A DNA stretch of 38,291 nucleotides from an uncultured Clostridia bacterium (GTDB taxonomy: Bacteria > Bacillota > Clostridia > Christensenellales > Aristaeellaceae), in NCBI GenBank assembly GCA_945948915.1, contig CAMFCQ010000020.1, positions 1 through 38,291 on the forward strand. The letters run 5' to 3'. The position numbers and the translations under genes are program-made. Under the pieces are notes generated by a model. That model made no database searches. It was not told where the DNA came from and saw nothing but the letters and a program-made list of their open reading frames with translations. Below, piece by piece: positions 2,466-33,608 of the stretch; position 1 is the first letter of the stretch, and each line of letters starts with the position of its first letter.

Positions 2466-5400
2466 TTATTCTGTCAGCCACTTCTGGATGTCCTTCAGCT
2501 TTTTCTCCCGGTCATATCCCAGCACCTGGTAGGCCGTGAGAATTCTCGCCTGCAGATTGGCGTATGCTGTTCTGTTCGTCCTGTACAGCTCCTTCATCTG
2601 CTCTTTGTAGTTTCTTTTAATGCTGTCTGCCAGCGTTTTTTCCGTTACGCCGTGGCTTGTGTACTCCTTGATGACATCCTTCAGATTTTCTCCGGATTCC
2701 AGCGCTGCGTAGAATTCATCATACTTCCTGTATTCCTCCGTCGATTTCCCTGTTTCCTGTGCAAATTTCCAGCTTTTCACCGTCCAGTACGCATCGTTCT
2801 TGTCCTCCTTCAGACCGTAATCTATCAGGATTTTCAGCGCCTTTTCACCATCCACCAGACCTTCCGTCATGATTCCCTTCAGTTCAGACGTCAGCGTTGA
2901 TTTCGTCACGCCATGGGTCAGGTAGTCCTCAATCACCTCTTTCAGATTCTCCCCGGATTCTACCGCCTCTCTGAAATCGTCGTACTTTTTGTAGTCGTTG
3001 GGCTTTCCTCCGTTCTCGTAGGCTTTTACCCATTTATCCACCTCGAAGTACGCCTCGTTTTCGTCTTTCATCAGCCCGTTTTCAACGATGAAGTTCAGTG
3101 CTGTTTCTCCGTCCATCTCACCTTCTGTTACGCGAGCTTTAATCTCATCCTTGATGCCGGATGCCAGTTTCTCCTCGCTCACGCCCTTGCTTTCCAGCAT
3201 GTATGCGGTCAGGCTCTCCGTTTTGTCCTGGTCGCCCCTGACCATAGCGGTCACGATGCGCTCGTAGTACGCGGTGTTCTTGCTGTCATATCCCGGCAGG
3301 TTTTCCGCCATCGCGTATCCCACGTTGGACGCATCCGGCGCCGACCAGTCGGTGCGGAGGATGAGGTTTTTGCCTCTGCGGATTTCCCGCATGATGTTCT
3401 TCACCGGCACGCCGATCAGGTTGGCCCATGTCCCCGCGAAGTTCTCCCAGTCCTTGCTCGTCAGCTCCTTTCCTTCCTTCACCTTTCCACGGAATTTCAG
3501 CGTGTATTTGAGCAGGTCTGAAATGACGGCCATGTCCGCGCGTTCCACGTCGTATCCCTCGCACAGGCTGATGATGTCGCGGATATATGGGATCATGTTC
3601 GCCGGGTTGATGTTGCCCAGCACGTTGCCCGTCGCCCTGTCCGCGTATTTCTCCGCCCAGTTGCGCTCGTCATCATCGTCATTCCATGCCTGCACCAGCG
3701 CCGCCGCGAGGCCCGCGAGGATGTTTGACGCCATCACGCCGCCTACCATCGCCGCGCTTTCCTTTGCTGTGTGCTTTCCTCTGAACGCATCATAGAACAT
3801 GTTGATGGACATCGTCGGCTCTGCCATGAAGGTGGTCGCCATCTTGTGCAGCGCGTTTCTGGATCTCATCAGGTCGCTTTTTGTCAGGATGCTGTCGTAC
3901 ACCTGGGTGTGGTCGATGACATCGTCGAAGCGTTTCCCCACCATGTCGAGGAATTCGTTGCTTGTGGTGTCCATGCCAGGATTCAGCTCCGCGGTTTCCT
4001 TCTTCACCGCCTGCCAGATCAGCCCCCATGCCCACTGGTCAGCCAGGCCAGGCAGCGCGTTTGCCTTGTCCATGGTCAGCTTTCCGGCTTTTTTGATCTG
4101 TTCCCATGTGTCTCCTGCATCTCGGCCCTTCCTCTGTTTCCACAGCTTTCCCCACGCCTGGAGCGCCGTTTCGTCCTCTCCCCGGATGTATTCGCTGGCA
4201 GTCAAGCCAAGGCCCACGTCGAATTTGCCCATGTCCTTGATGATGGCTGTTCCGCTGTGTGCCAGCATCTCGTCCCATACGCCCTTGCTCGGTCTGTAGA
4301 ACGGGTTGTTGAGGAAGTATTTCGGGTTGACCATCGCCATGGCGCGGGCGATTGCGGTCGGCTGCTGCAGCGTGACGGACGCCGACATGCTTACAGCTCC
4401 TCGCTTGAAGGCGCGGATGAGGTAATCCAATCCCTTCATGGCCCGGTTGTCTGACTGTGCTGCGCCGTTCAGATCCTTGAGGAAGTTCATCAGGTAATCC
4501 AGCGTTGTCTTCCCGTATTTCTGCGCGATCAGCTCCCTGTAAGTCTGGATGCTGCCATCCTCCCGCAGCACCTGGAAGTTCAACAGGCGCTTGAGCGCTT
4601 CGATCGGCTGCACCATGGATGCGTATGCCGCCATGGATTGCATGTGATCGACCGCCACCGTTGTGAAATCGTCCATCACCAGCGCCGTCTTTGCGCCCCT
4701 CTGCAGCTTCTTTGTGTAGGATGCATTTTTGACCCTTCCTGTTCCGCTGTCCTGCCCTGCTGCGCCTTCATCTCCGTGCAGATGGCGGTTCATCTGCGAT
4801 GTCTGGAACGGGAAGTAGTAGGGTTCGTTGAATTTCTTGTATCCGAACATCTCCATGCTCGCCTGGTTTCCGTAACCGCCCATGGTGGTGGACAGGTATT
4901 CCACCACTTCGTCCGCGTAGGCCTTCTGTTCTTCCGTCAGCCAGCTTTCTACGGCGGCGATGTCTTTCGCGTCCATCAGGTGCGAGATATCCGTCTGCCG
5001 GACGATGCCGTCCTTCAGCGCCTGCTTGTAGTGGAAACCGCCCACTTTCAGGTGCTCTGTTTTTGTCAGCACATTGGTTCTCTCGCGTTTCGCGGTCGCG
5101 TAGAGCCACATGGCCTGCTCCCTCGTCAGCTCGATTCTGTGCCCCTGCACCGTCGTGAGCGTCAGTTTCCCGTCGTCCATCCACCTGCCGTAATGGTGCT
5201 TCCTCTTGATTGCCTCCACCTCGGCCTTTGCGTCATGGACGATGTGGGCATACCTGGTCTGACCGTCGCGGATGTCGTTGTAGATCTGCATGACCCCGTC
5301 GTTTTCCAGCTGCTCGAAGAAGTAGATTGGCGTCTTGTTCCCGGTTCTGATGAGGGCATCCATGGCCTGCTGTGCCTCGCCCAGCTCGTCTGCCAGCACC

Positions 5401-8400
5401 ACCTTGTCCTTTCTCTCGTTCATCTGCCTTGCGGATGCCTCCGCGAACTGGTCGAAGTTAACCTTCTTTCCGTTGATGAACTGGCGGTTGTGGTTTTCGA
5501 TCATGTACAGCACATTCTCGATGATGTCATTTGCCCGTGCGAGGATCTGGCGTTCCATCTCGTACTTTTCTGTGCTTCTCGCCGTCTTGATGCCCTCTTG
5601 CGCGTATTCCTCGCTCAGCTGCTGCATCTCGTCGATGCTCTGGGCGATTTCATCGTCCCAGTAATAGCTGAAATCATTTTCCTGGTTCAGCAGCTGGCTG
5701 TAGTATTTCTGCAGCATCGCCGTCTGCGTCGGCTCAAAGGCGAAATGAGCCAGATTCCCTTCGGTGAATGTTTTCATCACCATGTCCGTCACATGCTGCA
5801 GCTCCTGGGGCACATGATCACGATCCGTTTCGTTTTTCCTCAGCCTGTTCAGCCGCTTCACGTTCCTGGCAATCCTGTCTCGCATGGTGTTCGCGTTGAC
5901 CTTCGCGCTCCAGTATTCGTTGGCTTCCTGCTTCTGTGCCAGCACCTTCTCCCTGATCTGCTTTGCGGTGTCCGATGTCAGTTCTTTTTCCAGCCTCTGC
6001 TTCTGTTCCCGCAGTTCCATCAGCCTGCGCTGCCTCTCCAGTTCCCGGTAGTAATCAACCGCCTTGCTTGTCAGCTCGCTGTTCCTGACCGCGGCAACCC
6101 ACATGCCGGACGCCCTGTCTGCTGTTCTTTTTGCCCGTTTGAGCGCCTCCTCCACCATCTGTCTTGCGGCTTCGTTCTGTCCTGCGTATTTCTGCATTTC
6201 ATTTCTCAGGTATTCCATGGCCTCCGCGTTCTGTGTCGTTGGCAAATCCGCGGATGCCAGCTCGGCCATCAGCACGCCGATGCTTTCCGCTTCCGTCATG
6301 CCCTCGAACTTGCCTGCGCCTTCGCTGGCTTTTTCCCGCTGGATGGTGTCATACAGCGCCATCGCCATGTCTGTTTCGTTCTCCGTTCCCAGCAGGGCTG
6401 TTACGGATACACCGCCATAGTATTCCGCGCTGCTGGCTTGGCTTCCCAGGTCGCTTCCTCTGTCCGTTACCCGCACATAGGGTGAAAGCGCTCGCTTGTA
6501 CTGCGCAACGGTCAATCCGGCGTTCCTGATCTCCTGCTTGTCCGTTTCCGTCAGGCTGATGACCGGAATCTCCTCCGCAATCATCCGAAGCGTTTCGCTC
6601 CTGTATCTGTAACCGCTGGTGCTGATGATGTCCTGCGCCAGCTCCTTGAGCTGCTCTGCGAAATTCTTCGCGCCCTGCTGACCGTCCTTGGCGTATAGCT
6701 CCGCATAGGCCAGTGCCAGACGGTCTGCAATGACCTTTGCGCTCATGCTGCTGGCGTTGTCTGCTTTCACCTTCTTTGCCGCCTGCTTGAGCTTCTCCTG
6801 GTCAAACAGGCCTCGTGCGACGGCGTTTCTCTGCCCCTGGGCTGCAGCCTCCACCTTTTTGTCCACGTCCTTCAGCTGCTCCGTCAGCCCGTTGATTTCC
6901 TCCACCAGCTTGTCGTGCGCATCGGATACATTGTCCGTCATGTTGTTGATGTACTGGTCTACTACATTTCGTGATGTCGCCATGATGCCTGCGAATCCCT
7001 TGGCGCTTTCCATTCCGGCAACGGTTTTTGCCAGCCTGTCCGCCTGGTTCTTCAGCACCTTCCTGCGGTTTGTGGCCTTCATCAGCTCCTCGCCGGTCGC
7101 CGTTTTGATGATCTCCTCCTGCTCCGCCACGGCCCGCTGCTTCTCCTGCAGCTCCTTCAGCTTGCCCTGGTATCGCTTCAGCAGCTCCACCTCCGTGTCG
7201 TTCATGTAGCTCTTCGGCTTCATCTCGGCGAGGTATTCCCGCACGGATACCGCGTCTGTCTGGTCGCGGGTGGAGTAACGTATGTCTGCTGTTTCCTGGT
7301 CGAAGGTTCCCACATTGTCCGTGGCGGATTTGATCTGTTTCGGTGAGAATACAATGTATGTGTGCACGTTCTCTCTGTTTCCGTTTACCCACCTGTGCCC
7401 ATCATATCCCAGCTCAATCCCGTCGTAGCCGCTTTCCCCTGACAAGAAGAAATCGTTCAGCAACGCTCGCATCTGTCCTCTTATCTTTCTTTCTATCTCT
7501 CCCATCCTTGCAATCAGCTCATCTTCGATGTCTGATAGCTCTTCATATCTTTCTTCAGATGTTTTCTGATTGAACATTTCATCTTCGATGGCCTTGAATT
7601 GCGGATCGAATTCAGCCATCTTCTTGTCAAATTCACTTTGCAGCTTGTCGTACCCTGGAACGTGCTTTCGATACCATGCATTCGCCTCGGAACGGTTCGC
7701 AAATGTCAGAATGTTTTCTGCCCTCAGATAAACAGCCATCTGTTTTGATCCGCCGATTCCAATGTCGTGGTCGTTGTCCTTGAAGAAGATCCCGTTGGGC
7801 GTTTCGCTGTCATTCAGCCCTGCGACAGGATGGTCCGTATTGAACACGGAAAAGTCTGCGGCTGTCTGATGGTAAACAATCTTCGGTGTTCCGTCCGCAT
7901 TGACGACCTTGCTTTTCCCAAACCACCGCTTGAACTGCTGCGTGTTAGTTTGATTTTCAATCATTCTCCTGTTGACTTCTGATCCCGCATCGAATATACT
8001 ATGGATGAGGCCATCCTGCACAGAGCTTCCGGGCAATTGGAGCCCGGCACTTCTATACAGGTTTTGAGCCTCTTTTTTATTCCAGTAATATACGCCGATG
8101 GTGTTTCCTGCACTTGCTTCGTCATTTAACGCATCTGTCAGCATTTTTGTCAAAGCGTTGCCTTTGCCAAAGACAGTCGCAACGGTATTGCTGTCAATAC
8201 GCAGGCTGTTGTTCGTGCTTACACCATTTACATAAACGGGAGCAATGATTTGCTTTCCGTTAATTTTTTCCTCCAAAATCACAACAACACTGTTTTCAGC
8301 ATCTGTATCAGAACGAATCACCGCAACTGGCCTTTTGAGCATTTCCGGCAGTTTTTTCAGCCACGCTTCACCCATGAAGTGATCTACGTCCTTTGTTCCG

Positions 8401-11400
8401 TTGACGATGTAGTCTACATGCGTTTGATTGATCGTCATCGGCAAGTCACCCATGCCAATCTGACGATACAATTCCGGCGTGCGTCCTACAAGCAGAGAAT
8501 CTCCCGTCGGGAAGTTACCGTTTTTCCAATCGTCCACCTGCTTTTCAAACGACTTGCTGTAGTCGTATTTTTCCCTCATGGAGTATTGTTTCACCCTGTC
8601 GTCGGCTTCCATCTGTTCGCCGTCAGGCCCTTGCCACTTGGTCGGTTCCACGCCGTTCTCTCGGAGAATCTCATCAACCTCTGCGCGGCTGAGGATCTTG
8701 TTGACCTTCATCGCGCCTGTGATAACCCACGGTACGGTGCTGGGGTCAGGATTCGTTCTGTAGTGATAGTAGCCATCCACCGGAAGTCTCGGCAGACCTG
8801 CCAGAGAGTGCTGGAATTTTCCGCTTGCGTTGTAGCCGTAGCTCATCGCTTCTTCCTGGTAGTCAACGTCCATGGCGTATTCGCACTCTGCCCAGACAAA
8901 GTTGTAGGGGAACAGTTCCTTCACGCCTGTTGCCTTGTTGAGGCGGTTGAACTGCGATGCCTTGGGGATATCTCCAAGGTGCCAACCCGGACGGAAGGCC
9001 AGAGAGCCTGATCCTCCCTGCGTTCCCTTGCCGCCAGCCTTTACCTGAAGACGCCCTGTCTTGGAAGGAGGAGCAGCAGCACCTACATCAGCGTTCAGCC
9101 ATACGCCGACAGGCGTGTCCGCTCCGCCCGGATTCGCTACCATGGGCGGGTATAGCTTGCCGTTTTTCTCAAAGAACACCTTGTACGCGATGCCTGTCTT
9201 CTTGGGCGGGTCTTCCTCGCGGATAGAGAACTTCGTATTCCCGTCCGACAGTTCGCCAGCCTCTACCCCCGTCTGCTGCTCCTGCGCCATGGCGGTGCCG
9301 TTCATCGCCGGGATCGTGTCCTCCATGCCCGCGTCCCACAGCTCCTGCAAATCGTCGATGTACTTCATCAGACCGTCCGCCATCTCCCGCAGCGCTGCGG
9401 CTTCCCTGTGGCTCCTGCCGATGCCCAGTGTGCGGAAGATTGCCTTTACCTTCTCCGCGAATCCCTGCACAAAGTCCTGTACCTTCTTTTTCAGTCCCGT
9501 GTCCAGGCGCTTGGTGAAAGCGCTGTCCTGCAGCATGTACTCGGATGCGTCCGCCACAACCTCCGCCTCCGCGCCCATGCGGGTCAGCTTCCGTCCTTCC
9601 TTCGATGCGTTCTTGATCTTTTCCCGCACAAGCTCCGTCCAGCTCTGTCCGTTCTCCTTCAGCCTGGCCTTCACCGCCGCCTTGTATTTTGCGTATCCCT
9701 CCGCTGATGTCGCTTCCATGTGGTGGGTCAGCTCGTGTGCAAGCGTCATATTCATCGCATATCCGATGGTGTTGTTTTCCTTCCCCGTCTGGATGCCCTG
9801 CGCTGTCGCCGCGCCGCTGTTGATGTCCAGATAGATCGTGTGGGTTGTCTCGTCGTACATGCCGTTTGCGATCTGCTGCACGTTCTGCGCGTCGCTCTCG
9901 TACAGCACCACGTTGACCTTCATTTCCCTGGCGAATGCCTGCACAACCTCCACCGTGGTTCTCTGGCTCTCTGTCATGCCCTCCAGCGCCCCGGAAAGGG
10001 CCTCCTGATCGCCTGTTCCTCTGATGGCATTGTTATCCCTTACCACGCCCAGCCAGGCCACCGTGCCCTCCGCAGCGTCCCTGACGCGCTGCGCTTTCGC
10101 CACCCGGTTTGCCTCTGCTTCTTCTCCTTCCTTCTTCGCCTGCTCATAAACGGCCTGCTGTACGTCATCCTGCAGCAGACCCCGCTGCGCTTCGATGCCC
10201 GCAAATCCCGCGCTGTATACCTCCTCAAAGCTGTCGATGAAGTTTCCTGCGTCGCCTCCCTGCTTGTTGTAGGCGGTCATCAGCGTGTTTGCTTCCGCTT
10301 CGCTCATATTGTGCTTCGCGCTTGACACATATTCGATGATGGTGGCTGTCCCGTAGCCTCCCTCTGTTTTCATGTCATCGATTTCAATGGTCGTTTCTCC
10401 GCTTTCCGTTTCGACCACCGCCTGCATGCCGTCGTTTGTCTTTTTGAATCGCAGGAAGGTTCCCTTGGCTTCCTCTCCGCTTTCGGAGAATGTGACCTCC
10501 TTTGAGGTGCTTCCCTTCGCCTTGTAGTCTGTTTTCCCCTCTGTCTTCTGCTTTGCCTTTTCCTGCGCTGCTTGGACGTCCGGGCTTTGCTCCTTTGCGA
10601 ACGCGGATGCCAGATCGATCTGCTTTGCCGTCACGTCCCTTGTCTGAAGGGCGTTTTTGATTGCCGCCTTTGTCTGCCAGGACGCTCCCGTTCGGTTCTC
10701 TTCTCCTTCCGCAATCGGCTTTGCCAGCTCCTTGACCACCTGGCTCGCGTTCCCGTCCCATTTTACCCGTGCTTTTTCGATGGCGGACAGCTCCTGTCCG
10801 AAGGCAATCTTCCGTACAGCCGCCTTGTTCTTGATGGCTGTATTCCGATCGCTCCCCAGCTCCACCATGCGCTCCTCGATGGCGTCCTCCATCACCTGAT
10901 TGGTGATCGCGGATTGCTCCTCCGTCAGCTCCTGCTCCAACTGGAACGACAGCATGCCAAGCTGCGGAAGGCTTGCCTTCTTGCCTCCCGCTGTTTTCTG
11001 CCTGATTTCCTTTGCCGTCTCTGCGGCCTTTGATGTTTCCCCCATGCTCTCCGCGATGGAAAGAATCTTCTCCACGCTGCCGTTGCTGGTGATGGTCTTT
11101 CCGCTCTTGACGTTCCGTCCCCTGATGCTCATCGCGCCGGGCGTTCCCATCATGCCGGAGGAAATGGCGGTGGTAATCCATGTTTCGGTCAGCCCCTGCC
11201 AGAATTCCTCGCCGCTCTTGATTTGCGGCTCATAGTCAAACAGGAAGCCAACCGCCATCTCCAGCACATCCTCGGAGAGGTAGTTGATTGTTTCCTCACC
11301 CAGCTCCGATGCAAGGAGCGTCTTGATATAGTCCAGCGCCTTGGCCTGTCCCATGTCAAAGAGCTTGTCCAGGCCAATCTTCTCCGTGCCCATCTCAAGG

Positions 11401-12947
11401 GCGCCGGTTCCGATGGCCTTGACGATCTTCGCCGCCGCGCTCATGTCGTCTCGCTGCGAGCTTTCGTGCAGGGAGGAGGAAGTGGCGGACAATCCCGCGC
11501 CGATCAGCGCGACGGTCGGATTCCCGCCCGCCAGCAGCAGGCGTACTCCGTTGTCCGCCGCGCCCGTTGCTCCATTGTAGGCGAAGGACGCAACGCCCTT
11601 CAGCCAGTCCGCCATCTCCGCGCTTTCGATGGCTCCCAGCTGGGCCTCCGCTGTCCATGCTGACAGGTTATTGACGTCAAATACCGATGAATAGGGGTCA
11701 TCCCGTCCCTTCGCCGTTTCGTACATCTGGAACGGCACCATGAATACCTTTCCGACCTCGTTTCCTCTTGCCTGCAGCCATGCGTCTGGTGCTGTGAATC
11801 CGTTCGCCGTCGCATAGGCTTCCGTGTATGCCTTGTTGACCATCGCGCGCCTGTACAGCAGCTCTGATCGCAGCAGCTCCAGGTATTCCGCGGCTTCCTC
11901 CTTCCGCCCCGTGTTGTAGAGGTAGTTGTAGTCTGCCAGCTCGTCATCTGTCAGCATGTCATAGCCTTCGGCGAGATAATCCCTGACGGCAATTGGTGCT
12001 TTTGCAGCCGCCTGCTTCTGCTCGTAGGTCGCTTCGCTGTTCAGGAAGCTGTACAGGTCGCTGATGATCCTGAAATCTTCTCTGTTCTGCATTCCTCCAC
12101 CCAGGAATGCGCCCTCTGAAACCTGCTCTCCCGTATAGGCGGAGAGCCTCTCAAAATCTGCCTCTCCCCGGATGCTGCGCTGGAGTTCGCTCAGCCTTTG
12201 TCTTGCTTCGCTGGTTTTTGTGACGAAGTCCAGCCAGCCCTGATAGGTTTCCGCTTTCCCTGCGTGTGGGCTTGTGCTGCTGCCTGTCAGCGATGTCCAA
12301 TCCAGATTGTCGTACTGATCCTTCAGGCGCTTTTCCTCTGCATAGTAGGTTGCATCGTCCATGGCCTCGTACTTTGCGTTGATCTTCTCAAAGTCGAACA
12401 GCTCATCCCGATCCCCCAGTAGATAGTCCGCCATCAGGTAGTTGTACCACTGGTCTGCTTCGCTTTTCGCATCCTTAGACTGATACAGCTCCTGCCATCT
12501 TGCCTTTGTTTCAGGGGTTTGCCCTGCCTTTTCATCCGCCTGCTTTGCAAGACCGATTTTCTTTTCCAGCTCCGGAGCCAGCGCCTTCAGATACGCATCC
12601 GACACCAGCATTACCGTCTCCGGGTTCACCGCGTACTTCTCCTGGTCAAACATCCCGTATTGACGCACGTCATGGATGGAGGACGCCTGGTCCTTCACGG
12701 TCTGCTGCATCACGTCCCAGTCCCATGTTCCAAGGTCGCCCTGCTTTCTCTGGATCATGCCTGTGGTCAGTGTGTTTGCCGCCTCGTTTTTGTTTTTCTC
12801 GCCCTGCATCGCAAACTTCATGGTTGCGTCCAGCGCCTTTTTGTACGCTGGCGAAACCTTGCTTTGCGCTGCGCTTTTCTTCTTTTTCTCCTCCAGCGCC
12901 TTCTCCAGCGCTTCGTTCCTTTTCTTCCCGGCCTTGATCACAGGCAA
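2466..12947 (-). CDS. Giant polyvalent virion/ejection protein with zincin, MuF-C-like and ART-PolyVal-like domains
   Basis: 3493 aa. Order seen: helical N-terminus (1-430); Gly/Ala-rich hydrophobic segments (about 430-620); zincin-like metallopeptidase with HELTHH (His1071, Glu1072, His1075); a conserved domain of unnamed type (about 1242-1432, LYPPMVANPGG, GGKGTQGGSGSLAFRPGWHLG, NFVWAECE); a MuF C-terminal-like domain (about 1457-1640, PMTINQTHVDY, PVYVNG, RIDSNTVATVFGKGNA); an ART-PolyVal-like ADP-ribosyltransferase module (about 1672-1880, KIVYHQT, GIFFKDND); long coiled coils (about 1900-2500); an LPD38-like region (about 2763-3190) with a hydrophobic helix near 3050-3080; and two to three C-terminal repeats. 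This mosaic is typical of polyvalent proteins that some phages eject with DNA to counter host defences. Its place between an internal-virion-like protein and the fibres fits packaging in the particle. Domain boundaries are estimates and the enzymatic activities are inferred. Confidence 0.85.
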   Translation of the reverse strand: MPVIKAGKKRNEALEKALEEKKKKSAAQSKVSPAYKKALDATMKFAMQGEKNKNEAANTLTTGMIQRKQGDLGTWDWDVMQQTVKDQASSIHDVRQYGMFDQEKYAVNPETVMLVSDAYLKALAPELEKKIGLAKQADEKAGQTPETKARWQELYQSKDAKSEADQWYNYLMADYLLGDRDELFDFEKINAKYEAMDDATYYAEEKRLKDQYDNLDWTSLTGSSTSPHAGKAETYQGWLDFVTKTSEARQRLSELQRSIRGEADFERLSAYTGEQVSEGAFLGGGMQNREDFRIISDLYSFLNSEATYEQKQAAAKAPIAVRDYLAEGYDMLTDDELADYNYLYNTGRKEEAAEYLELLRSELLYRRAMVNKAYTEAYATANGFTAPDAWLQARGNEVGKVFMVPFQMYETAKGRDDPYSSVFDVNNLSAWTAEAQLGAIESAEMADWLKGVASFAYNGATGAADNGVRLLLAGGNPTVALIGAGLSATSSSLHESSQRDDMSAAAKIVKAIGTGALEMGTEKIGLDKLFDMGQAKALDYIKTLLASELGEETINYLSEDVLEMAVGFLFDYEPQIKSGEEFWQGLTETWITTAISSGMMGTPGAMSIRGRNVKSGKTITSNGSVEKILSIAESMGETSKAAETAKEIRQKTAGGKKASLPQLGMLSFQLEQELTEEQSAITNQVMEDAIEERMVELGSDRNTAIKNKAAVRKIAFGQELSAIEKARVKWDGNASQVVKELAKPIAEGEENRTGASWQTKAAIKNALQTRDVTAKQIDLASAFAKEQSPDVQAAQEKAKQKTEGKTDYKAKGSTSKEVTFSESGEEAKGTFLRFKKTNDGMQAVVETESGETTIEIDDMKTEGGYGTATIIEYVSSAKHNMSEAEANTLMTAYNKQGGDAGNFIDSFEEVYSAGFAGIEAQRGLLQDDVQQAVYEQAKKEGEEAEANRVAKAQRVRDAAEGTVAWLGVVRDNNAIRGTGDQEALSGALEGMTESQRTTVEVVQAFAREMKVNVVLYESDAQNVQQIANGMYDETTHTIYLDINSGAATAQGIQTGKENNTIGYAMNMTLAHELTHHMEATSAEGYAKYKAAVKARLKENGQSWTELVREKIKNASKEGRKLTRMGAEAEVVADASEYMLQDSAFTKRLDTGLKKKVQDFVQGFAEKVKAIFRTLGIGRSHREAAALREMADGLMKYIDDLQELWDAGMEDTIPAMNGTAMAQEQQTGVEAGELSDGNTKFSIREEDPPKKTGIAYKVFFEKNGKLYPPMVANPGGADTPVGVWLNADVGAAAPPSKTGRLQVKAGGKGTQGGSGSLAFRPGWHLGDIPKASQFNRLNKATGVKELFPYNFVWAECEYAMDVDYQEEAMSYGYNASGKFQHSLAGLPRLPVDGYYHYRTNPDPSTVPWVITGAMKVNKILSRAEVDEILRENGVEPTKWQGPDGEQMEADDRVKQYSMREKYDYSKSFEKQVDDWKNGNFPTGDSLLVGRTPELYRQIGMGDLPMTINQTHVDYIVNGTKDVDHFMGEAWLKKLPEMLKRPVAVIRSDTDAENSVVVILEEKINGKQIIAPVYVNGVSTNNSLRIDSNTVATVFGKGNALTKMLTDALNDEASAGNTIGVYYWNKKEAQNLYRSAGLQLPGSSVQDGLIHSIFDAGSEVNRRMIENQTNTQQFKRWFGKSKVVNADGTPKIVYHQTAADFSVFNTDHPVAGLNDSETPNGIFFKDNDHDIGIGGSKQMAVYLRAENILTFANRSEANAWYRKHVPGYDKLQSEFDKKMAEFDPQFKAIEDEMFNQKTSEERYEELSDIEDELIARMGEIERKIRGQMRALLNDFFLSGESGYDGIELGYDGHRWVNGNRENVHTYIVFSPKQIKSATDNVGTFDQETADIRYSTRDQTDAVSVREYLAEMKPKSYMNDTEVELLKRYQGKLKELQEKQRAVAEQEEIIKTATGEELMKATNRRKVLKNQADRLAKTVAGMESAKGFAGIMATSRNVVDQYINNMTDNVSDAHDKLVEEINGLTEQLKDVDKKVEAAAQGQRNAVARGLFDQEKLKQAAKKVKADNASSMSAKVIADRLALAYAELYAKDGQQGAKNFAEQLKELAQDIISTSGYRYRSETLRMIAEEIPVISLTETDKQEIRNAGLTVAQYKRALSPYVRVTDRGSDLGSQASSAEYYGGVSVTALLGTENETDMAMALYDTIQREKASEGAGKFEGMTEAESIGVLMAELASADLPTTQNAEAMEYLRNEMQKYAGQNEAARQMVEEALKRAKRTADRASGMWVAAVRNSELTSKAVDYYRELERQRRLMELREQKQRLEKELTSDTAKQIREKVLAQKQEANEYWSAKVNANTMRDRIARNVKRLNRLRKNETDRDHVPQELQHVTDMVMKTFTEGNLAHFAFEPTQTAMLQKYYSQLLNQENDFSYYWDDEIAQSIDEMQQLSEEYAQEGIKTARSTEKYEMERQILARANDIIENVLYMIENHNRQFINGKKVNFDQFAEASARQMNERKDKVVLADELGEAQQAMDALIRTGNKTPIYFFEQLENDGVMQIYNDIRDGQTRYAHIVHDAKAEVEAIKRKHHYGRWMDDGKLTLTTVQGHRIELTREQAMWLYATAKRERTNVLTKTEHLKVGGFHYKQALKDGIVRQTDISHLMDAKDIAAVESWLTEEQKAYADEVVEYLSTTMGGYGNQASMEMFGYKKFNEPYYFPFQTSQMNRHLHGDEGAAGQDSGTGRVKNASYTKKLQRGAKTALVMDDFTTVAVDHMQSMAAYASMVQPIEALKRLLNFQVLREDGSIQTYRELIAQKYGKTTLDYLMNFLKDLNGAAQSDNRAMKGLDYLIRAFKRGAVSMSASVTLQQPTAIARAMAMVNPKYFLNNPFYRPSKGVWDEMLAHSGTAIIKDMGKFDVGLGLTASEYIRGEDETALQAWGKLWKQRKGRDAGDTWEQIKKAGKLTMDKANALPGLADQWAWGLIWQAVKKETAELNPGMDTTSNEFLDMVGKRFDDVIDHTQVYDSILTKSDLMRSRNALHKMATTFMAEPTMSINMFYDAFRGKHTAKESAAMVGGVMASNILAGLAAALVQAWNDDDDERNWAEKYADRATGNVLGNINPANMIPYIRDIISLCEGYDVERADMAVISDLLKYTLKFRGKVKEGKELTSKDWENFAGTWANLIGVPVKNIMREIRRGKNLILRTDWSAPDASNVGYAMAENLPGYDSKNTAYYERIVTAMVRGDQDKTESLTAYMLESKGVSEEKLASGIKDEIKARVTEGEMDGETALNFIVENGLMKDENEAYFEVDKWVKAYENGGKPNDYKKYDDFREAVESGENLKEVIEDYLTHGVTKSTLTSELKGIMTEGLVDGEKALKILIDYGLKEDKNDAYWTVKSWKFAQETGKSTEEYRKYDEFYAALESGENLKDVIKEYTSHGVTEKTLADSIKRNYKEQMKELYRTNRTAYANLQARILTAYQVLGYDREKKLKDIQKWLTE
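2649..3182 (-). repeat. C-terminal protein repeats in the giant gene
   Basis: Two tandem units of 91 and 87 residues, plus the start of a third, lie in the last 290 residues of the giant protein. Each unit starts with HGVT or GVSE, has a D/G-GE-AL-I-GL core followed by KYD-F--A-ESGENLK-VI, and is about half identical to its neighbour. They look like helical-bundle repeats, possibly for anchoring in the capsid or for oligomerisation. Confidence 0.75.
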
Positions 12948-29296: not shown

Positions 29297-29485
29297 TCAT
29301 TCCTGCCCGTCCACGAAAACCTTCTTCTGCCAGGCAACCAGATATGCCCCCACCACCTGATCCCATGCAATTGCCACAATCTGATCCGCGCCCCGCAACG
29401 GGTGCTCATCGTCCCTGATCAGATCGTTGATCACCTTTGGCGCCGTAACGTACTCATATTCCAGTTCGTATCGGATGCGGCCCAT
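29297..29485 (-). CDS. Hypothetical protein
   Basis: 62 aa, with a hydrophobic stretch QIVAIAWDQVVGAYLVAWQKK in the second half, possibly a core beta-alpha unit rather than a membrane helix. No family recognised. GGTGGAGGC precedes the ATG at 29485. It overlaps the end of the replication initiator gene by 55 nt. Confidence 0.6.
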   Translation of the reverse strand: MGRIRYELEYEYVTAPKVINDLIRDDEHPLRGADQIVAIAWDQVVGAYLVAWQKKVFVDGQE

Positions 29486-30387
29486 GCCTCCACCCCCTTC
29501 TCGTCCTTTTGTGTCAGTACCGCGTAGATGTACGCTCCTCCCACCCACTCGCTCGTTTTGACCTGCATCTCCAGCACTTCATATCCCGGATAGCATGCCT
29601 CCATGTGCATGCGTGCGATGTCCGGATCTCGCTTGATTTCCTGCGCGATCTTCTCCACGCGCCTCCTGCTGATTTTTTTGTCCGCTTCTGTCGCCTGCGG
29701 CACCTTCAGCCCCTTTGACGCGGCCCACCGGTGCTTCCGCTGGAAGCTGTCCGCCCTGTTCCCCGCGCATACCTGCTTGGCGATGTATCTTGCCCAGCCC
29801 GTCAGCCCCTCCCTCATCCGCTGCGCGCAGCGTGTGTTGCAGATGCCGTGGTGCTTTATCCACAGGTTTTCCACTTCTTCCCGGGCCAGCTCTGCCTTCA
29901 GCACCATGTGGTGGTGGTACCTCGTTCCCCACCTGTTGGAGACCGTGACCTCCGTGACGTATACATAGGCCGGATCAGACGCACCTCGCCTGCGGCACAT
30001 CCGCTTGATGCGTGCCAGGTAGTTGCGCATGTTCTTCTGCGCGTCCTCGATGGTTTCCGGTTCTTTCCCCTGCGCGTAGGTGCATGTGACCAGGTGATCC
30101 CCCGGGCCGAAGTTGGCGTTGACGATCTGTACCAGCCTGTCCTCCGCGCGTTTTGCGTTGATTTTCCGCTGTGCGTCGTTTGTCGTCTTTTTTTCTCGTT
30201 CCCGGCTCAGGCGCTTCTCCGCGTCCCGCCTTGCGGATGTGTCCCAGATGGGGTAGGACGCGCAGTAGAGCAGCGGCCCGGCCTTGATGGTGCGTGTCCT
30301 TTGCTTTTCCACGCCCCGCTGCCATCCCGGCTGGATTTCTCTGTCCTTGCTGATCTCCATCAAAAGGCGGATGTCCTGCTCCCTCAT
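29431..30387 (-). CDS. HUH-type replication initiator (Rep, ORF2/G2P-like)
   Basis: 318 aa. The central region matches the RCR Rep pattern: LVTCTYAQGKEPETIEDA (motif 1-like), the HUH metal motif RYHHHMVLK, and a downstream conserved Tyr in GWARYIAKQV that could be the nicking residue. Such proteins nick one strand and start rolling-circle replication, as gpA does in P2. The C-terminal part is basic and helical. It is the only clear replication gene in the window, so phage replication probably combines it with host polymerase. RBS GGGAGGGACACAG. Confidence 0.78.
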   Translation of the reverse strand: MREQDIRLLMEISKDREIQPGWQRGVEKQRTRTIKAGPLLYCASYPIWDTSARRDAEKRLSREREKKTTNDAQRKINAKRAEDRLVQIVNANFGPGDHLVTCTYAQGKEPETIEDAQKNMRNYLARIKRMCRRRGASDPAYVYVTEVTVSNRWGTRYHHHMVLKAELAREEVENLWIKHHGICNTRCAQRMREGLTGWARYIAKQVCAGNRADSFQRKHRWAASKGLKVPQATEADKKISRRRVEKIAQEIKRDPDIARMHMEACYPGYEVLEMQVKTSEWVGGAYIYAVLTQKDEKGVEAWAASDTNWNMSTLRRQR

Positions 30388-30685
30388 CTGTGTCCCTCCC
30401 CCTGAGCCACTCCAGGGAGGTGGCTTCGCTTCGCTTGCCCCCTCCCGCCGTGGCGGGCGCCCACCCCCTTCCGCTGCCTTCCTCCACCGGAAAGCAGCAT
30501 CAGGAGGATTCTTTTCGTTTTGCTTCTCTGAATGCTTGATTTTTGATTACCGCATTCAAGCCTGCGCAGAGGGTCTTTCACCCTCTCCTTTTAATAGGTA
30601 GATTCTCATGATTTCCCGTGATTCTCAAGCGCCACCCGGGCCTTTTCTGATGGCCCGGATGGCGTTGTTTTCTTTGCTGTTTCGC
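30388..30685. other. Intergenic region upstream of rep; candidate replication origin
   Basis: About 300 bp without a convincing gene. It contains a CCCGCC/GGCGGG hairpin, purine-rich runs, and a minus-strand GTG-started frame (30581-30384) with AAGGAGAGG upstream, whose TGA overlaps the rep ATG; its composition looks non-coding, so I do not call it a gene. HUH initiators usually nick next to a hairpin close to their own gene, making this the best origin candidate. Confidence 0.4.
30628..30666. terminator. Strong hairpin, terminator-like
   Basis: A 15-bp stem with one mismatch (AGCGCCACCCGGGCC against GGCCCGGATGGCGTT, 9-nt loop). The plus-strand 3' side is T-rich (TTGTTTTC). It lies 20 nt past the stop of the leftward 111-aa gene, so it probably marks a transcript end or RNA-stability element before rep. 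Minus-strand U enrichment is weak. Confidence 0.5.
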
Positions 30686-31021
30686 TTATTCGACGATTCG
30701 ATTCAGGAACTCGTCCTTTGCTTCCATCACATCGTCAAATCTTCCTGTCGCGGAGAATTTCAGCCCGTCGTACTCGATGTGTACGGTCATCGGCTGTTCC
30801 CAGACCCATGCGTCCTCGCGCTTGTCTTCATTGCCCATGCGCGTTGTGTTCATGGCTCCCTTTTTCTCCTGTCCCTCCTTGATCAGCACCGGAAGGCCGT
30901 CGTTCTTCAGCGCTTCCAGCATGATTTCCCTGATCTCGTCCCAGTCCATCCTGCCTCCCACGCTTTCGCGCATGTCTCCGTCCTCGTCGTAGATTTCGAT
31001 GCGAACCTTGTCCTTCTTCAT
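30686..31021 (-). CDS. Hypothetical protein
   Basis: 111 aa, acidic N-terminus (VRIEIYDEDGDMRESVGGRMDWDEIREIM) with a possible beta hairpin, then a C-terminal half ending in TVHIEYDGLKFSATGRFDD. No family recognised. The start at 31021 is chosen for GGAGGAGCAAC. It is transcribed with the tRNA and structured-RNA island just upstream. Confidence 0.6.
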   Translation of the reverse strand: MKKDKVRIEIYDEDGDMRESVGGRMDWDEIREIMLEALKNDGLPVLIKEGQEKKGAMNTTRMGNEDKREDAWVWEQPMTVHIEYDGLKFSATGRFDDVMEAKDEFLNRIVE

Positions 31022-31059
31022 GTTGCTCCTCCTCGGTTGTTTTTGCACATCTGTGCGAA

Positions 31060-31131
31060 AGCCCCCTGCGGGATTTGAACCCGCAGCCTGCTGATTACAA
31101 ATCAGCCGCGCTGCCGTTGCGCCAAAGGGGC
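31060..31131 (-). tRNA. tRNA-Thr(UGU)
   Basis: Complete cloverleaf: acceptor GCCCCTT/AGGGGGC (one G-U), D stem GCGC/GCGC with GG in the loop, anticodon stem GCTGA/TCAGC with loop TTTGTAA (anticodon UGU), T arm GCGGG-TTCAAAT-CCCGC, discriminator U. No CCA is encoded. It reads the ACA codon and lies downstream of the structured RNA. Confidence 0.95.
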
Positions 31132-31570
31132 AAGAGCGATCCTTTGCGGCTTTTCGCCGAGGATCGCGGCCTGGGGGAAGTTGTCATCCCAGCGCCTGGC
31201 CTTATAGGCCTATGGAGGATGTAACAAAGGCTGCTGCTTAAAGCCTTTGTCTTGTGCGGCGCGCGGGTCCTGCCCCCGCTCCATCCGTTGCCAGTCGGAC
31301 GTCTGTCTTCACCAGCGTCGCATCCAATGGCAGGATTCCCTTTGCCCGCCCTGGATGGGAGGGAATCCATCGTGAGTCTTACACCCACCGACCGGGCTGC
31401 ACTTTGCCCTAAGGAGGCCGGACGGATCATGCCTGAATCCGCCCTTGGTGCGGCCGGACGGAGTTGCACCGTCCTGTCCTGTCTGCCGCATGTGCGCCGG
31501 GCCTTCAAGCACCATTCCCGGCGCGGTATGAAATTGTCCGCTTTCGCGGAGGGCGTGTTGGCGCCGCCCC
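31132..31570 (-). ncRNA. Large structured RNA candidate between two tRNAs
   Basis: A 439-nt GC-rich stretch with no plausible gene but many long perfect stems: 31136-31143/31160-31167 (8 bp), 31198-31202/31206-31210, 31224-31231/31243-31250 (8 bp), 31255-31262/31315-31322 (closing a junction containing 31263-31267/31275-31279 and 31284-31287/31296-31299), 31333-31340/31361-31368 (8 bp), 31449-31454/31485-31490 enclosing 31456-31461/31469-31474, 31494-31501/31517-31524 (8 bp), and 31537-31541/31546-31550. On the minus strand the last is capped by a GAAA tetraloop, pointing to minus-strand RNA. Size, ornateness and tRNA neighbours resemble the phage ROOL and GOLLD classes; identity is inferred. 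Confidence 0.6.
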
Positions 31571-31646
31571 TGGAGCGGCGAACGGGAATCGAACCCGCAG
31601 CCTACGGCTTGGAAGGCCGTTGCTCTGCCAGTTGAGCTATCGCCGC
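31571..31646 (-). tRNA. tRNA-Gly(UCC)
   Basis: Complete cloverleaf with encoded CCA: acceptor GCGGCGA/TCGCCGC, D stem GCTC/GAGC with GG in the loop, anticodon stem ACGGC/GCCGT with loop CTTCCAA (UCC, reads GGA), T arm GCGGG-TTCGATT-CCCGT, discriminator U. Same strand as the structured RNA that follows. Confidence 0.96.
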
Positions 31647-31681
31647 ATGGGCCGGTTCCCCGGCCATCTGATTCGTTTTTT

Positions 31682-31879
31682 TCAGAAACTCATCCGTTTC
31701 TTTTTTTCCCCAACCCATATCACCCGCTGCTCCGGCGGCGTCCTGTCCTCGTGATATAAGCTGCAGTCCTTGTTTTTGTTCTCCAGCTCGCCGAATGCGC
31801 TGCATGGCCTGCTTGCCCGCTCCGGGTGATAATAGGTGCAGTGGACGCAGTCCCGCTCCCCATGCTTCGCCCATGTCAT
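31682..31879 (-). CDS. Small Cys-rich protein
   Basis: 65 aa, starting MTWAKHGERDCVHCTYYHPE, with Cys-x2-Cys and further Cys (PCSAFG, DCSLYHE) that may form a zinc site. It is similar in type to the other small metal proteins of this operon, function unknown. Its ATG overlaps the stop of the upstream membrane-protein gene (ATGA). Confidence 0.62.
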   Translation of the reverse strand: MTWAKHGERDCVHCTYYHPERASRPCSAFGELENKNKDCSLYHEDRTPPEQRVIWVGEKKKRMSF

Positions 31880-32067
31880 GCGCAGATCGCCCCCAGGATC
31901 ACCATCGCCGCCCAGCAGATCCCTGCCATCGCCGCGGCAAAACCTGCCCCGATGATGATTCCTTGCGCATTCGCCCGATGCGGTTTTCCCGTCTGGATCA
32001 TCCACCTGCTCTCGCTTCGGTGGGTTGTTCTCGTCACATAGTCCGGCAGTTTTCCCGCTGCGTACAT
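31876..32067 (-). CDS. Small membrane protein
   Basis: 63 aa. A polar, basic N-terminus is followed by one clear hydrophobic segment (GIIIGAGFAAAMAGICWAAM, about residues 36-60). RBS GGAGGAAG. No family is recognised. Confidence 0.62.
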   Translation of the reverse strand: MYAAGKLPDYVTRTTHRSESRWMIQTGKPHRANAQGIIIGAGFAAAMAGICWAAMVILGAICA

Positions 32068-32084
32068 CTTCCTCCACCCCCTGA

Positions 32085-32399
32085 TTATTCATCCTCAACC
32101 AGTGCCATGATCATGGCTTCATCCGACCTCAACGGGCAGGACGCGAATTCATCCCCCGCTGCCCCTGCCGCGACAACCGTTCCGCACAGCCAGTCCCCTC
32201 GGAACGGAAAGTTTCCCGGAAGGCCCTTCAGCTTTCCCTCCTCGTTGACGATCAGGATCAGCTCCTCATTCACCGTCACCGTCTCGATGTACCCTCCGAC
32301 CAGCTGCTGAAAATCTTCCAGCCTGTTCTCGATGTTCCATGGGTTCCAGTTTTCTCCCGGCTCCTTGACCATCACCACAATGCGGCTCTTCTTCTCCAT
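32085..32399 (-). CDS. DUF3846 domain protein
   Basis: 104 aa, covering the whole DUF3846 pattern: VVMVKEPGENWNP, LEDFQQLVGGYIETV, LILIVNEEGKLKGLPGNF and CGTVVAAG. The family is common in phage and plasmid early regions; function unknown. The start has GGGGGGCAGAATGAT upstream and the gene starts 1 nt after the stop of the HTH gene. Confidence 0.8.
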   Translation of the reverse strand: MEKKSRIVVMVKEPGENWNPWNIENRLEDFQQLVGGYIETVTVNEELILIVNEEGKLKGLPGNFPFRGDWLCGTVVAAGAAGDEFASCPLRSDEAMIMALVEDE

Positions 32400-32400
32400 A

Positions 32401-32643
32401 TCATTCTGCCCCCCTGATTTTTCCCTGCCAGCCCATGTAGCGCAGGAATGGGATGCGCGGTATCTTGGTATAGCGTCCCACCCTCATCACGGGGAAGCCC
32501 AGGCCATTGCGGCCCTCCTGGGTCTGTGCCATCACGCTGATGTAGTATGGCGAGCTCCCCGTTACGCTTGCCACCTGGGCAGGCGTCAGCATGTTGCAGT
32601 CCATGTCCGCCAGATCAGCCAGCGTCAGTCTCTTTTTTTCCAT
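32401..32643 (-). CDS. Helix-turn-helix protein (excisionase- or regulator-like)
   Basis: 80 aa. LTPAQVASVTGSSPYYISVM is an HTH_17/MerR-like segment, then RVGRYTKIPRIPFLRYMG as in small excisionase-type proteins. It could act as an excisionase, although it is far from the integrase, or as an early regulator. RBS AGGAAG. Confidence 0.6.
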   Translation of the reverse strand: MEKKRLTLADLADMDCNMLTPAQVASVTGSSPYYISVMAQTQEGRNGLGFPVMRVGRYTKIPRIPFLRYMGWQGKIRGAE

Positions 32644-32660
32644 TTCTCATGCTTCCTCCC

Positions 32661-32891
32661 TTATCCGGCACGGCATACCGTCAGGCCGTAAGCCTCTGTT
32701 TTGATCAGCCTGCCCATGCGGATGCCCAGCAGCTTGCCCATCCATTCCTCCCGTGCCGCGTGGGTCATGCTTGCCCCGTTCACAGCGCTGTATGCGCTGC
32801 ACACGGCGTCCAGCGCCTCGCTGGCTGTCTGGCACATGCAGGTGAAGCATGCGTTTCCCATCTGCATCGTCACCTCGATGCTGTAGCTCAT
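32661..32891 (-). CDS. Hypothetical protein
   Basis: 76 aa, helical with Cys pair CFTCMCQ and a basic end. No family is recognised. The start at 32891 is chosen for GGAGGCAAAGGAA upstream. Confidence 0.58.
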   Translation of the reverse strand: MSYSIEVTMQMGNACFTCMCQTASEALDAVCSAYSAVNGASMTHAAREEWMGKLLGIRMGRLIKTEAYGLTVCRAG

Positions 32892-32927
32892 TTCCTTTGC
32901 CTCCTGTTGTGTTGGATTTGGTGGCGT

Positions 32928-32961
32928 GGAAGCCTTTTCGGTTGTATAGGCCGAGGCTTCC
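32928..32961 (-). ncRNA. Bulged hairpin of the second structured island
   Basis: Eight-bp stem GGAAGCCT/AGGCTTCC, a 3-nt one-sided bulge, then CGG/CCG. The same architecture and the same CCT..CGG/CCG..AGG core occur at 31136-31167, next to tRNA-Thr. It lies between the tRNA-like element and the RBS of the 76-aa gene. Confidence 0.6.
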
Positions 32962-33019
32962 CCCGTTGGCATGCAGAAACCAACCGGGCGCGCCGCACTT
33001 CGCGCTTTCCGAAAGGATG

Positions 33020-33037
33020 CCGGGGCGTCACCCCCGG
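33020..33037 (-). ncRNA. Hairpin at the 3' side of the tRNA-like element
   Basis: CCGGGG/CCCCGG stem with a 6-nt loop, directly after the CCA of the tRNA-like element on the minus strand. It may act as a processing or 3'-end signal. Between it and 32961 are further short stems (for example GCGCG/CGCGC near 32990). Confidence 0.5.
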
Positions 33038-33133
33038 TGGCGCGGCAGGCAGGATTCCAACCCGCATACACGGTTATCCCTCGTCGTCCAGGCGAGCTTG
33101 GATGTCCGTCGCTCTTTGTTGAGCTACCGCCGC
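33038..33133 (-). tRNA. Atypical tRNA-like element, Ser-like
   Basis: A 96-nt element with acceptor GCGGCGG/CTGCCGC (7 bp, one G-U), discriminator G, encoded CCA, and D-stem-like GCTC/GAGC. The T arm GCGGG-TTGGAAT-CCTGC is canonical except for C56 replaced by G. The D loop is short (AACAAA) and lacks the GG needed to pair with C56, so both partners of that contact are lost. A 14-nt insert precedes an imperfect anticodon arm (CTCGC-CTGGACG-ACGAG, anticodon GGA if used). Discriminator G and a GGATAACC variable arm, shared with attP, fit serine. It may be a tRNA pseudogene or a tRNA mimic. Confidence 0.5.
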
Positions 33134-33155
33134 ATATGCCTCCCGCAGGGGAGGC

Positions 33156-33311
33156 TTACTGCTTTACTTTCTTTTCCTGCTGTGCTTTCCAGGCTTCAAA
33201 GCGCCGCATGTTCTCCGGCTCTGCGTAGAACGCCCTCGCCGCCTCCAGCAGGATCGACGCCGCCGTGTCCTTCAGACCCTCCGGCAGCTTTTCCGCTCCG
33301 GCTTTGCCCAT
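33156..33311 (-). CDS. Small early protein (51 aa)
   Basis: 51 aa, helical, starting MGKAGAEKLPEGLKDTAAS, charged C-terminus. It lies next to another small gene in the early leftward operon, with GGGAGGGGG upstream of the ATG. No family is recognised. Confidence 0.55.
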   Translation of the reverse strand: MGKAGAEKLPEGLKDTAASILLEAARAFYAEPENMRRFEAWKAQQEKKVKQ

Positions 33312-33329
33312 GCTCCAGCGCCCCCTCCC

Positions 33330-33467
33330 TTAGTTGCTGTCCTTGCTGTCCTTCATCGCGGCCAGATACCCGGCCAGGAAGTCGTGTGCCCGTGCGCACT
33401 GCTCCGGCGTCAGCGATTCCAGCTCGTCCCGCAGTTCCTCCTGCCAGGTCTTGGTGGTGTTTGCCAT
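33330..33467 (-). CDS. Small early protein (45 aa)
   Basis: 45 aa, helical and acidic, with the core WQEELRDELESLTPEQ. It is the first gene after the leftward early promoter at 33546-33574. RBS GGAGGAATCACC. No family is recognised; a small regulator is possible. Confidence 0.55.
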   Translation of the reverse strand: MANTTKTWQEELRDELESLTPEQCARAHDFLAGYLAAMKDSKDSN

Positions 33468-33529
33468 GGTGATTCCTCCTTCTTCTGTTTCCGTGCTTCA
33501 TAGCTTCGGGTGTTTTTATTCGCCCTTTG

Positions 33530-33574
33530 TTATATCTGCAACTATATATTATCACCATTTATTATATCTGTCAA
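33530..33574 (-). promoter_or_regulatory. Leftward early promoter with duplicated operator
   Basis: On the minus strand TTGACA (33569-33574), 17-bp spacer, TAATAT (33546-33551). The 9-bp word TTATATCTG occurs at 33530-33538 and 33562-33570, 32 bp apart, covering the -35 and the start region, so the repressor at 33658 is the likely binder. Confidence 0.82.
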
Positions 33575-33608
33575 TATATTTTTCTTCAAAAAATTCAGAA
33601 AAATACTC

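Follow-up and report, generated by a model that had tools for sequence, protein, structure and literature searches.

A stretch of 439 nt between the tRNA-Gly and tRNA-Thr genes of a clostridial prophage shows no gene-like codon usage, carries hairpins and a tRNA top-half minihelix beyond what chance would give, bears a partial likeness to a covarying RNA family of same-genus genomes, and matches no known RNA family. Our preferred reading, to which we assign a probability of about 0.42, is that it is a phage-specific non-coding RNA freed from a minus-strand tRNA transcript by tRNA-processing enzymes; that the stretch is transcribed, processed and stable, and that it has any role, is what we infer. 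The underlying observation of the first-pass annotation, a hairpin-rich non-coding stretch between phage tRNAs, is confirmed.

The prophage and its gene order

The window is the whole stretch of DNA that we analysed, a contig of 38,291 nt from a draft host genome of 2.9 Mb in 158 contigs. By content the contig is a prophage, with an integrase and a terminase recognized by Pfam and a portal assigned from its position. Read 5' to 3' on the minus strand, the order is small genes, tRNA-Gly(TCC), the 439-nt stretch (hereafter the element), tRNA-Thr(TGT), a 120-aa gene and a REP_ORF2-G2P gene (rep), whose product we take to be of the HUH type. All of these share the minus strand with the adjoining annotated frames, and rep lies 0.7 kb downstream of the element. 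Since ARAGORN and Rfam together place the two tRNA genes, the gap between them is 31132-31570. On the same strand, 2466-12947 is a 3493-aa open frame, sized like a large polyvalent phage protein.

31571..31646, minus strand: tRNA-Gly (TCC), CCA encoded, upstream neighbour (ARAGORN; Rfam gives 31574-31646)
31132..31570, minus strand: 439-nt non-coding hairpin-rich stretch between the tRNA genes (ARAGORN, folding, codon usage, stem count)
31060..31131, minus strand: tRNA-Thr (TGT), no CCA encoded, downstream neighbour (ARAGORN and Rfam)
30686-31048, minus strand: 120-aa gene between tRNA-Thr and rep
29431..30387, minus strand: REP_ORF2-G2P replication protein gene, downstream (PF23343, E 2.1e-7)

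Non-coding character and folding

The gap had been described as about 440 nt without a plausible gene, and codon usage bears this out. With a codon table trained on 16 phage genes, which themselves score +0.10 to +0.75 bits per codon, four of the overlapping frames in the gap score -0.12 and -0.40 (minus strand) and -0.37 and -0.65 (plus strand). Wrong-frame controls average -0.43 and reach -0.16 at most, which puts the best gap frame just above the best control and below all 16 genes. The test covers these four frames, and on their codon usage we reject a protein-coding reading of 31132-31570.

The four perfect stems that had been reported are present, with lengths of 8-9 bp, and the claimed GAAA-capped hairpin appears in the minus-strand fold.

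31537..31550, minus strand: hairpin UCCGC-GAAA-GCGGA with a GAAA tetraloop (fold)
31494..31524, minus strand: perfect 8-bp stem GCGCCGGG/CCCGGCGC (stem count)
31333-31368, minus strand: perfect 9-bp stem inside the segment resembling RNA family A, described below (stem count)
31224..31250, minus strand: perfect 9-bp stem ACAAAGGCU/AGCCUUUGU (stem count)
31136..31167, minus strand: perfect 8-bp stem GCGAUCCU/AGGAUCGC, topped by CGGC-GAAAA-GCCG (fold, stem count)

Counting perfect pairing of at least 8 bp with loops of 3-30, 1000 dinucleotide shuffles of the element contain 0.22 such stems on average, and four are reached in 1 of the 1000. Across 87 tiles of the window the maximum is three, a count reached by two tiles; one of these two shares sequence with the element. 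As RNA, the minus strand folds at -200.7 kcal/mol (z -4.01, with 0 of 100 shuffles as good), compared with z -1.56 (6 of 100) for the plus strand; with DNA parameters both strands give z -4.57. The claim that a phage tRNA island contains a structured stretch here is supported. On its own, folding energy carries less weight than one might suppose, as it is not unique to the stretch: among 43 minus-strand tiles (every second one, the element included, 30 shuffles each), three besides the element reach z -4.3 or below and, with the element, four have z of -4.2 or lower, which counts against the reading. The multi-branch junction that had also been proposed is present in the minimum-free-energy structure, but the centroid structure differs, and the local hairpins are therefore the secure part while the junction is not established.

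Two short words recur in other phages. The 11-mer ACAATTTCATA lies near tRNAs in three related phages (window 31537, L062:11775 and L211:3043/L212:6460) and is absent from the other loci among the 97 window and phage loci scanned, save for one extra copy in the unrelated L010; the 12-mer GATGGATTCCCT is common to the window and L071. Both are too short for inference.

A tRNA top half and tRNA-like genes with enlarged anticodon regions

Within the element, a pattern scan for acceptor stem, T-arm and CCA picks out a 44-nt piece with the shape of a tRNA top half. Its acceptor stem forms six of seven pairs (one mismatch) and stacks on a 5-bp T-arm with the 7-nt loop UGCAACU, followed by A-CCA, and a 9-nt linker replaces the D and anticodon arms. 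The same pattern occurs in 3 of 8000 shuffles of the element, a test designed after the piece had been spotted by eye, which counts against it. Across the 38-kb window the scan returns three places, tRNA-Gly, 31446-31489 and 33038-33146, all on the minus strand; the plus strand gives none. The minihelix goes unmatched by the Rfam tRNA model (RF00005), and neither this model nor ARAGORN finds a cloverleaf inside 31132-31570, reporting the flanking tRNAs only.

31446..31489, minus strand: 44-nt tRNA top-half minihelix (acceptor/T-arm/CCA pattern scan)
33038..33133, minus strand: tRNA-like gene, 1.4 kb upstream (stem pattern, 33038-33146; Rfam 33041-33133, 37.4 bits)
L070:11080-11174, minus strand: tRNA-like gene with enlarged middle (Rfam model)
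L062:12217-12328, minus strand: tRNA-like gene with enlarged middle (Rfam model)
L062:11935-12078, minus strand: tRNA-like gene with enlarged middle (stem pattern only)
L055:1193-1300, minus strand: tRNA-like gene with enlarged middle (stem pattern only)
L076:15912-16082, minus strand: tRNA-like gene with enlarged middle (stem pattern only)

Neither ARAGORN nor Rfam run over the whole window reports the upstream tRNA-like gene; its 37.4-bit Rfam match appears when a short stretch is searched. Its anticodon region spans 32 nt, against 9 in the Rfam model, it has no D-loop GG, and its T-loop reads UUGGAAU; its acceptor and T stems are still paired. Among five loci that carry a rep gene of this type, four of six Rfam tRNA matches exceed the model's anticodon-region length, by one nucleotide in L212 and L055 and more widely in L070 (32 versus 11) and L062 (56 versus 17), and the other two, both in L062, are ordinary in this region. 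A tRNA-Val that ARAGORN places in L063 has no counterpart in this Rfam scan. These comparisons suggest that enlarged anticodon regions may be a recurrent oddity of this phage group.

Relatives, synteny and the spacer alternative

Homologues, which the first-pass annotation had proposed to seek by BLASTN, did not appear at full length. A blastn search of 100 related genomes returns, besides the element itself in its own genome, one match below E 1e-3 (G004, 29 nt, 93%, element positions 207-235), and the 99 other genomes and the GenBank phages contain no full-length homologue. A GenBank phage match, in two records of one phage (43 nt, 81%, E 0.1), falls inside a gene and was taken as chance; the 10 kb around the element have no near match among GenBank phages. 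Exact core patterns find nothing in IMG/VR. The best blastn value is E 0.36 among 80 of the 118 terminase-related IMG/VR loci, many of them too short to reach the corresponding place, and E 1.0 among 16 rep-linked loci. A diverged structured RNA could escape such sequence searches; that the element is one sequence only, with no full-length homologue found and hence no covariation within it to support the structure, counts against a stable RNA.

The neighbouring genes differ in their spread. The 120-aa gene matches 1 of 308 family genomes, its own, and has no pattern match in IMG/VR. The rep protein matches 24 of 300 genomes, its own included, also without a pattern match in IMG/VR, and a rep relative is present in 7 of the 80 (of 118) terminase-related loci. 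Of 21 mapped rep loci, counting that of the window, 6 carry ARAGORN tRNAs in the 3.2 kb upstream of rep. The nearest arrangement is in prophage L062, which has the identical tRNA-Gly/tRNA-Thr order with a spacer of 121 nt that has no excess structure (z -0.63), which counts against our reading, and the 88 nt before its tRNA-Gly give z -4.09. In L068, a tRNA-Pro and a tRNA-Ser are separated by 99 nt (z -1.90) and followed by 320 nt (z -1.65). What lies in the spacers that we read is not repeated from one to the next, which points to fast turnover.

Could the element, then, be a fast-evolving spacer with tRNA debris, in which the minihelix is one of several remnants of lost phage tRNAs and the rest is structured filler that serves spacing only? 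Spacers do vary in length and sequence among relatives (121, 99 and here 439 nt), blastn finds nothing below E 1 in the rep-linked loci or below E 0.36 in the terminase-related ones, and the neighbouring tRNA-like gene has lost its D-loop GG and altered its T-loop. However, debris would not be expected to retain four perfect stems of 8-9 bp, and that same tRNA-like gene keeps its acceptor and T stems paired though its loops have changed. We consider this reading unlikely, though it survives better than the other alternatives.

The nearby rep gene raises another alternative, that the element acts as single-stranded DNA and forms all or part of a structure, such as an origin, used by the HUH-type Rep encoded downstream. 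The identity of that gene as REP_ORF2-G2P and the equal folding of both strands with DNA parameters would fit, as would the strong structure of the gap directly before rep (30388-30685, minus strand, 298 nt), which folds more strongly still (z -5.94) and is itself a candidate replication origin or leader. That gap, however, is the more natural origin; the element is flanked by tRNA genes, RNA folding favours its minus strand, and relatives keep tRNAs before rep, not this hairpin set. A DNA origin at this place therefore seems distinctly improbable.

Two further structured features were seen in the related prophages. A hairpin with the loop GGAAAGAC (GGAGAGAC in L068) recurs upstream of rep in L055 (twice), L062 (twice), L063, L068, L070 and L071; it is often preceded by GACA, its stems vary (GCCG/CGGC, GCCC/GGGC and GATC/GATC, for example), and it is boxB-like in look. 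These upstream positions make up 8 of the 19 places with a stem of at least 3 in 98 loci, the other 11 lying elsewhere, and the hairpin is absent from the element. In L062, 14092-14326 (plus strand) gives a FuFi-1 RNA match that is significant (E 5.6e-8) although its 50.9 bits fall short of the gathering score of 59.6; it lies near that prophage's cI-like match.

RNA family A and its relation to the element

One segment of the element resembles an RNA family of same-genus genomes, which we call family A. It has seven copies in five genomes (two each in G004 and G002, one each in G015, G016 and G024).

L079:1338-1538, minus strand: family A copy
L082:607-806, plus strand: family A copy
L080:1346-1539, minus strand: family A copy
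L140:3364-3576, plus strand: family A copy
L137:7684-7849, plus strand: family A copy
L141:6244-6395, minus strand: family A copy
L148:639-779, plus strand: family A copy
31295..31375 of the window, minus strand: segment resembling the 5' part of family A, an AUCCA-loop hairpin, then GGAUGC..GCUGGUG (R1 and blastn)

An 18-base core with at most one mismatch is found in 4 of 60 genomes, the window's own included, and a backward control pattern in none; the place in G001 reads as coding by eye. The G015 place and both places in G004 are mutually related and lie outside long frames taken as genes. When 308 genomes of the bacterial family were searched with the G004 sequence, 14 gave matches with E no higher than 0.01, which brought in G016, G024 and two places in G002; eight of the 14, from other genera (E 0.001-0.009), were dropped because in a sequence comparison they shared only short pieces with family A. 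Model R1, built from six sequences with the window left out, was run over 150 genomes with an E limit of 0.1 and reports seven, namely the five of family A (G024 at 59 bits), G365 (26.2 bits) and G110 (18.1 bits), and does not report the window's own genome. Its run over 391 class genomes gave no match and shows little, because no positive genome rang.

With all seven sequences aligned to the structure, 89.9% of cells are paired, where slid versions reach 36-51%. Changes on both sides affect 16 of 44 pairs; shuffles give 7.1, and 0 of 500 come to 16. Fitting the alignment to the structure favours this covariation result. Family A is a covarying structured RNA for which no Rfam counterpart was seen: scans of six of its loci (all but L137) and of L149, with E limits of 5 or 3, give no match that overlaps the RNA. 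Its fold opens with a hairpin whose loop reads AUCCA, or AGCCA in G016; behind it, GCCGGAUGCAUACGGCUGGUGG pairs with CACCCUCUGGCUUUGUGCGUCCGG in a long helix. Most members end in a T-run and have, by eye, an upstream promoter-like site. ARAGORN finds no tRNA in the seven loci (2-8 kb each), and by eye the downstream genes look phage-type.

Other pattern matches were set aside, four as coding by eye (L078, L083, L138, L143), two for want of further similarity by eye (L084, L085), one inside a 343-aa frame (L136) and one without an R1 match (L156). A looser motif occurs in 70 of 308 genomes, its backward control being absent from those listed; places beyond family A were judged unrelated, without each being tested, because the sequence between the motif halves differs. 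Seven wider relatives (L149:1501-1650 and, from IMG/VR, L153, L154, L155, L157, L158 and L159) score 16.5 to 29.2 bits with R1. They have GCCGGATGCATACGGC and, before a T-rich stretch downstream, a more or less complementary strand, without the AUCCA hairpin; in appearance this is a leader or terminator that phages and other mobile DNA carry. L149:1501-1650 precedes what looks by eye like a ParA gene, and L149:1728-1803 (plus strand) gives a pemK RNA match of 34.6 bits, just below the gathering score of 34.8.

How closely does the element follow this family? The best R1 match in the window is 31295-31375 (16.4 bits, E 0.0023 over the window; next 9.5 bits). This score is weak because antisense strands of true members reach 27.8 bits, and it is not independent because this same similarity led to the loci on which R1 is built. 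The window hairpin at 31333-31368 has the AUCCA loop and is identical with G004 over at least 21 nt, and both continue into GGAUGC..GCUGGUG. In an in-register test of the 40 nt after the identity, 36 (G004a), 28 (G004b), 99 (G015) and 79 (G016) of 5000 shuffles are as good; in the first local flank test the counts are 139 to 184 of 5000 for four family A sequences and 1083 for G002b. The 60 nt before the identity show no similarity (3462, 3579, 1904 and 316 of 5000 shuffles as good for G004a, G004b, G015 and G016). Where family A has its core GCCGGAUGCAUACGGC, pairing long-range with CACCCUCUGGCUUUGUGCGUCCGG, the window has GGAUGCGACGC and no partner strand is seen; the long helix cannot form, since both the GCCGGATGCATACGGC core and the 3' partner strand are missing. 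The window also lacks the T-run, and its only promoter-like sites lie far upstream at 33546-33589. A further difference is the lack of ARAGORN tRNAs in the family A loci.

A diverged, incomplete member of this leader-like family would explain why a model built without the window finds its best match here, and why identity with G004 extends into an in-register flank that 36 of 5000 shuffles equal. The missing core and partner, the dissimilar upstream sequence (316 of 5000 in G016, the best of four), the dependence and weakness of the R1 score and the silence of R1 on the window's own genome make membership improbable. We read the segment as a module probably shared with family A.

A proposed processing model

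We return to the reading of the element as an RNA released from a tRNA transcript. In bacterial tRNA operons, flanking tRNAs set defined ends through RNase P and 3'-processing, and an acceptor/T-arm minihelix is the minimal shape accepted by bacterial RNase P. The element would be carried in the minus-strand transcript of the phage tRNA genes, with its upstream end produced by an endonuclease or by trimming at the tRNA-Gly 3' end and its downstream end by the RNase P cut at the tRNA-Thr 5' end. As the minihelix with its CCA has that minimal shape, a further cut near 31490, or tRNA mimicry, is possible. The perfect hairpins might then shield the freed RNA from exonucleases. Promoter-like sites upstream, at 33546-33589, are near chance (two seen, 1.1 expected), and no minus-strand terminator-like site is found in 30300-33600, which counts against a stable RNA. 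A role as a stable phage RNA or a tRNA mimic is our best guess and not a result.

A bolder version, which we regard as quite unlikely, would make the element the first member of a new kind of phage tRNA-island RNA carrying tRNA mimics that lack an anticodon. Such tRNA-shaped RNAs, their anticodon arms enlarged or absent, would be found throughout the phages of this bacterial lineage, upstream of HUH rep genes, serving as decoys for tRNA-handling or tRNA-cleaving enzymes such as the anticodon nucleases of host defence.

If the element is a tRNA-island RNA at all, one shorter than ROOL and GOLLD, outside both and with a built-in tRNA top half, it would suggest that tRNA islands contain several unrelated RNA inventions with tRNA processing as their way out, of which this would be a small testable case. 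The search also yielded two by-products, the covarying family A without an Rfam match and, in related prophages, the tRNA-like genes whose anticodon regions are enlarged.

Comparison with known RNAs

The first-pass annotation had likened the element to ROOL or GOLLD, and this likeness did not survive. Over the whole window, Rfam 15, a library that we take to include GOLLD, reports only the two flanking tRNAs above threshold. Over 30950-31760 at E up to 10 it gives 15 rows, the two tRNAs and 13 sub-threshold unrelated families, with neither ROOL nor GOLLD among them; the absence of GOLLD is judged from these rows, the positive control being that of ROOL alone. The ROOL model (RF03087) matches 0 of 5 genomes, the window's own included, and 0 of 14 built-in control genomes, while the ROOL-carrying plasmid pMP118 scores 130.4 bits against a gathering score of 99.1. 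On these grounds we reject a ROOL or GOLLD identity. A limited search of open-access literature (few terms, titles and beginnings of abstracts) returned no description of the element, of family A or of enlarged anticodon regions in such phages.

The setting is nevertheless similar. According to PMC12286853, ROOL and GOLLD are structured RNAs of phage tRNA islands with no known function, often near such islands; phages and prophages encode ROOL, a large structured non-coding RNA, while GOLLD is longer than 800 nt in many cases and sometimes has tRNAs in its linker. A covariation-supported fold with several pseudoknots and assembly into an octameric cage are further marks of ROOL. The element shares with ROOL its place in a prophage near tRNAs, but it has no model match or homologues found and, as had been noted, is shorter (439 nt versus 574 ROOL model positions). 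Compared with GOLLD it is about half the length, well below the roughly 800 nt that many members exceed, and it shows no match to the conserved 3' region of GOLLD, as judged through Rfam only. A ROOL or GOLLD variant assembling into an RNA cage would account for the tRNA-island position, but with that length, no match in Rfam at E up to 10 and a silent ROOL model we hardly credit it.

Two other systems offer parallels in kind. The tRNA cluster of phage T4 contains extra stable small RNAs (RNA C and D), transcribed among the tRNAs and of unknown function; T4 is an unrelated phage, and its RNAs are shorter than the element. RNase P minihelix substrates and mascRNA-type tRNA-like 3' ends likewise stack an acceptor stem on a T-arm, end in a 3' CCA and have no anticodon arm, a design that the minihelix of the element shares, differing from them by one mismatch in its acceptor stem.
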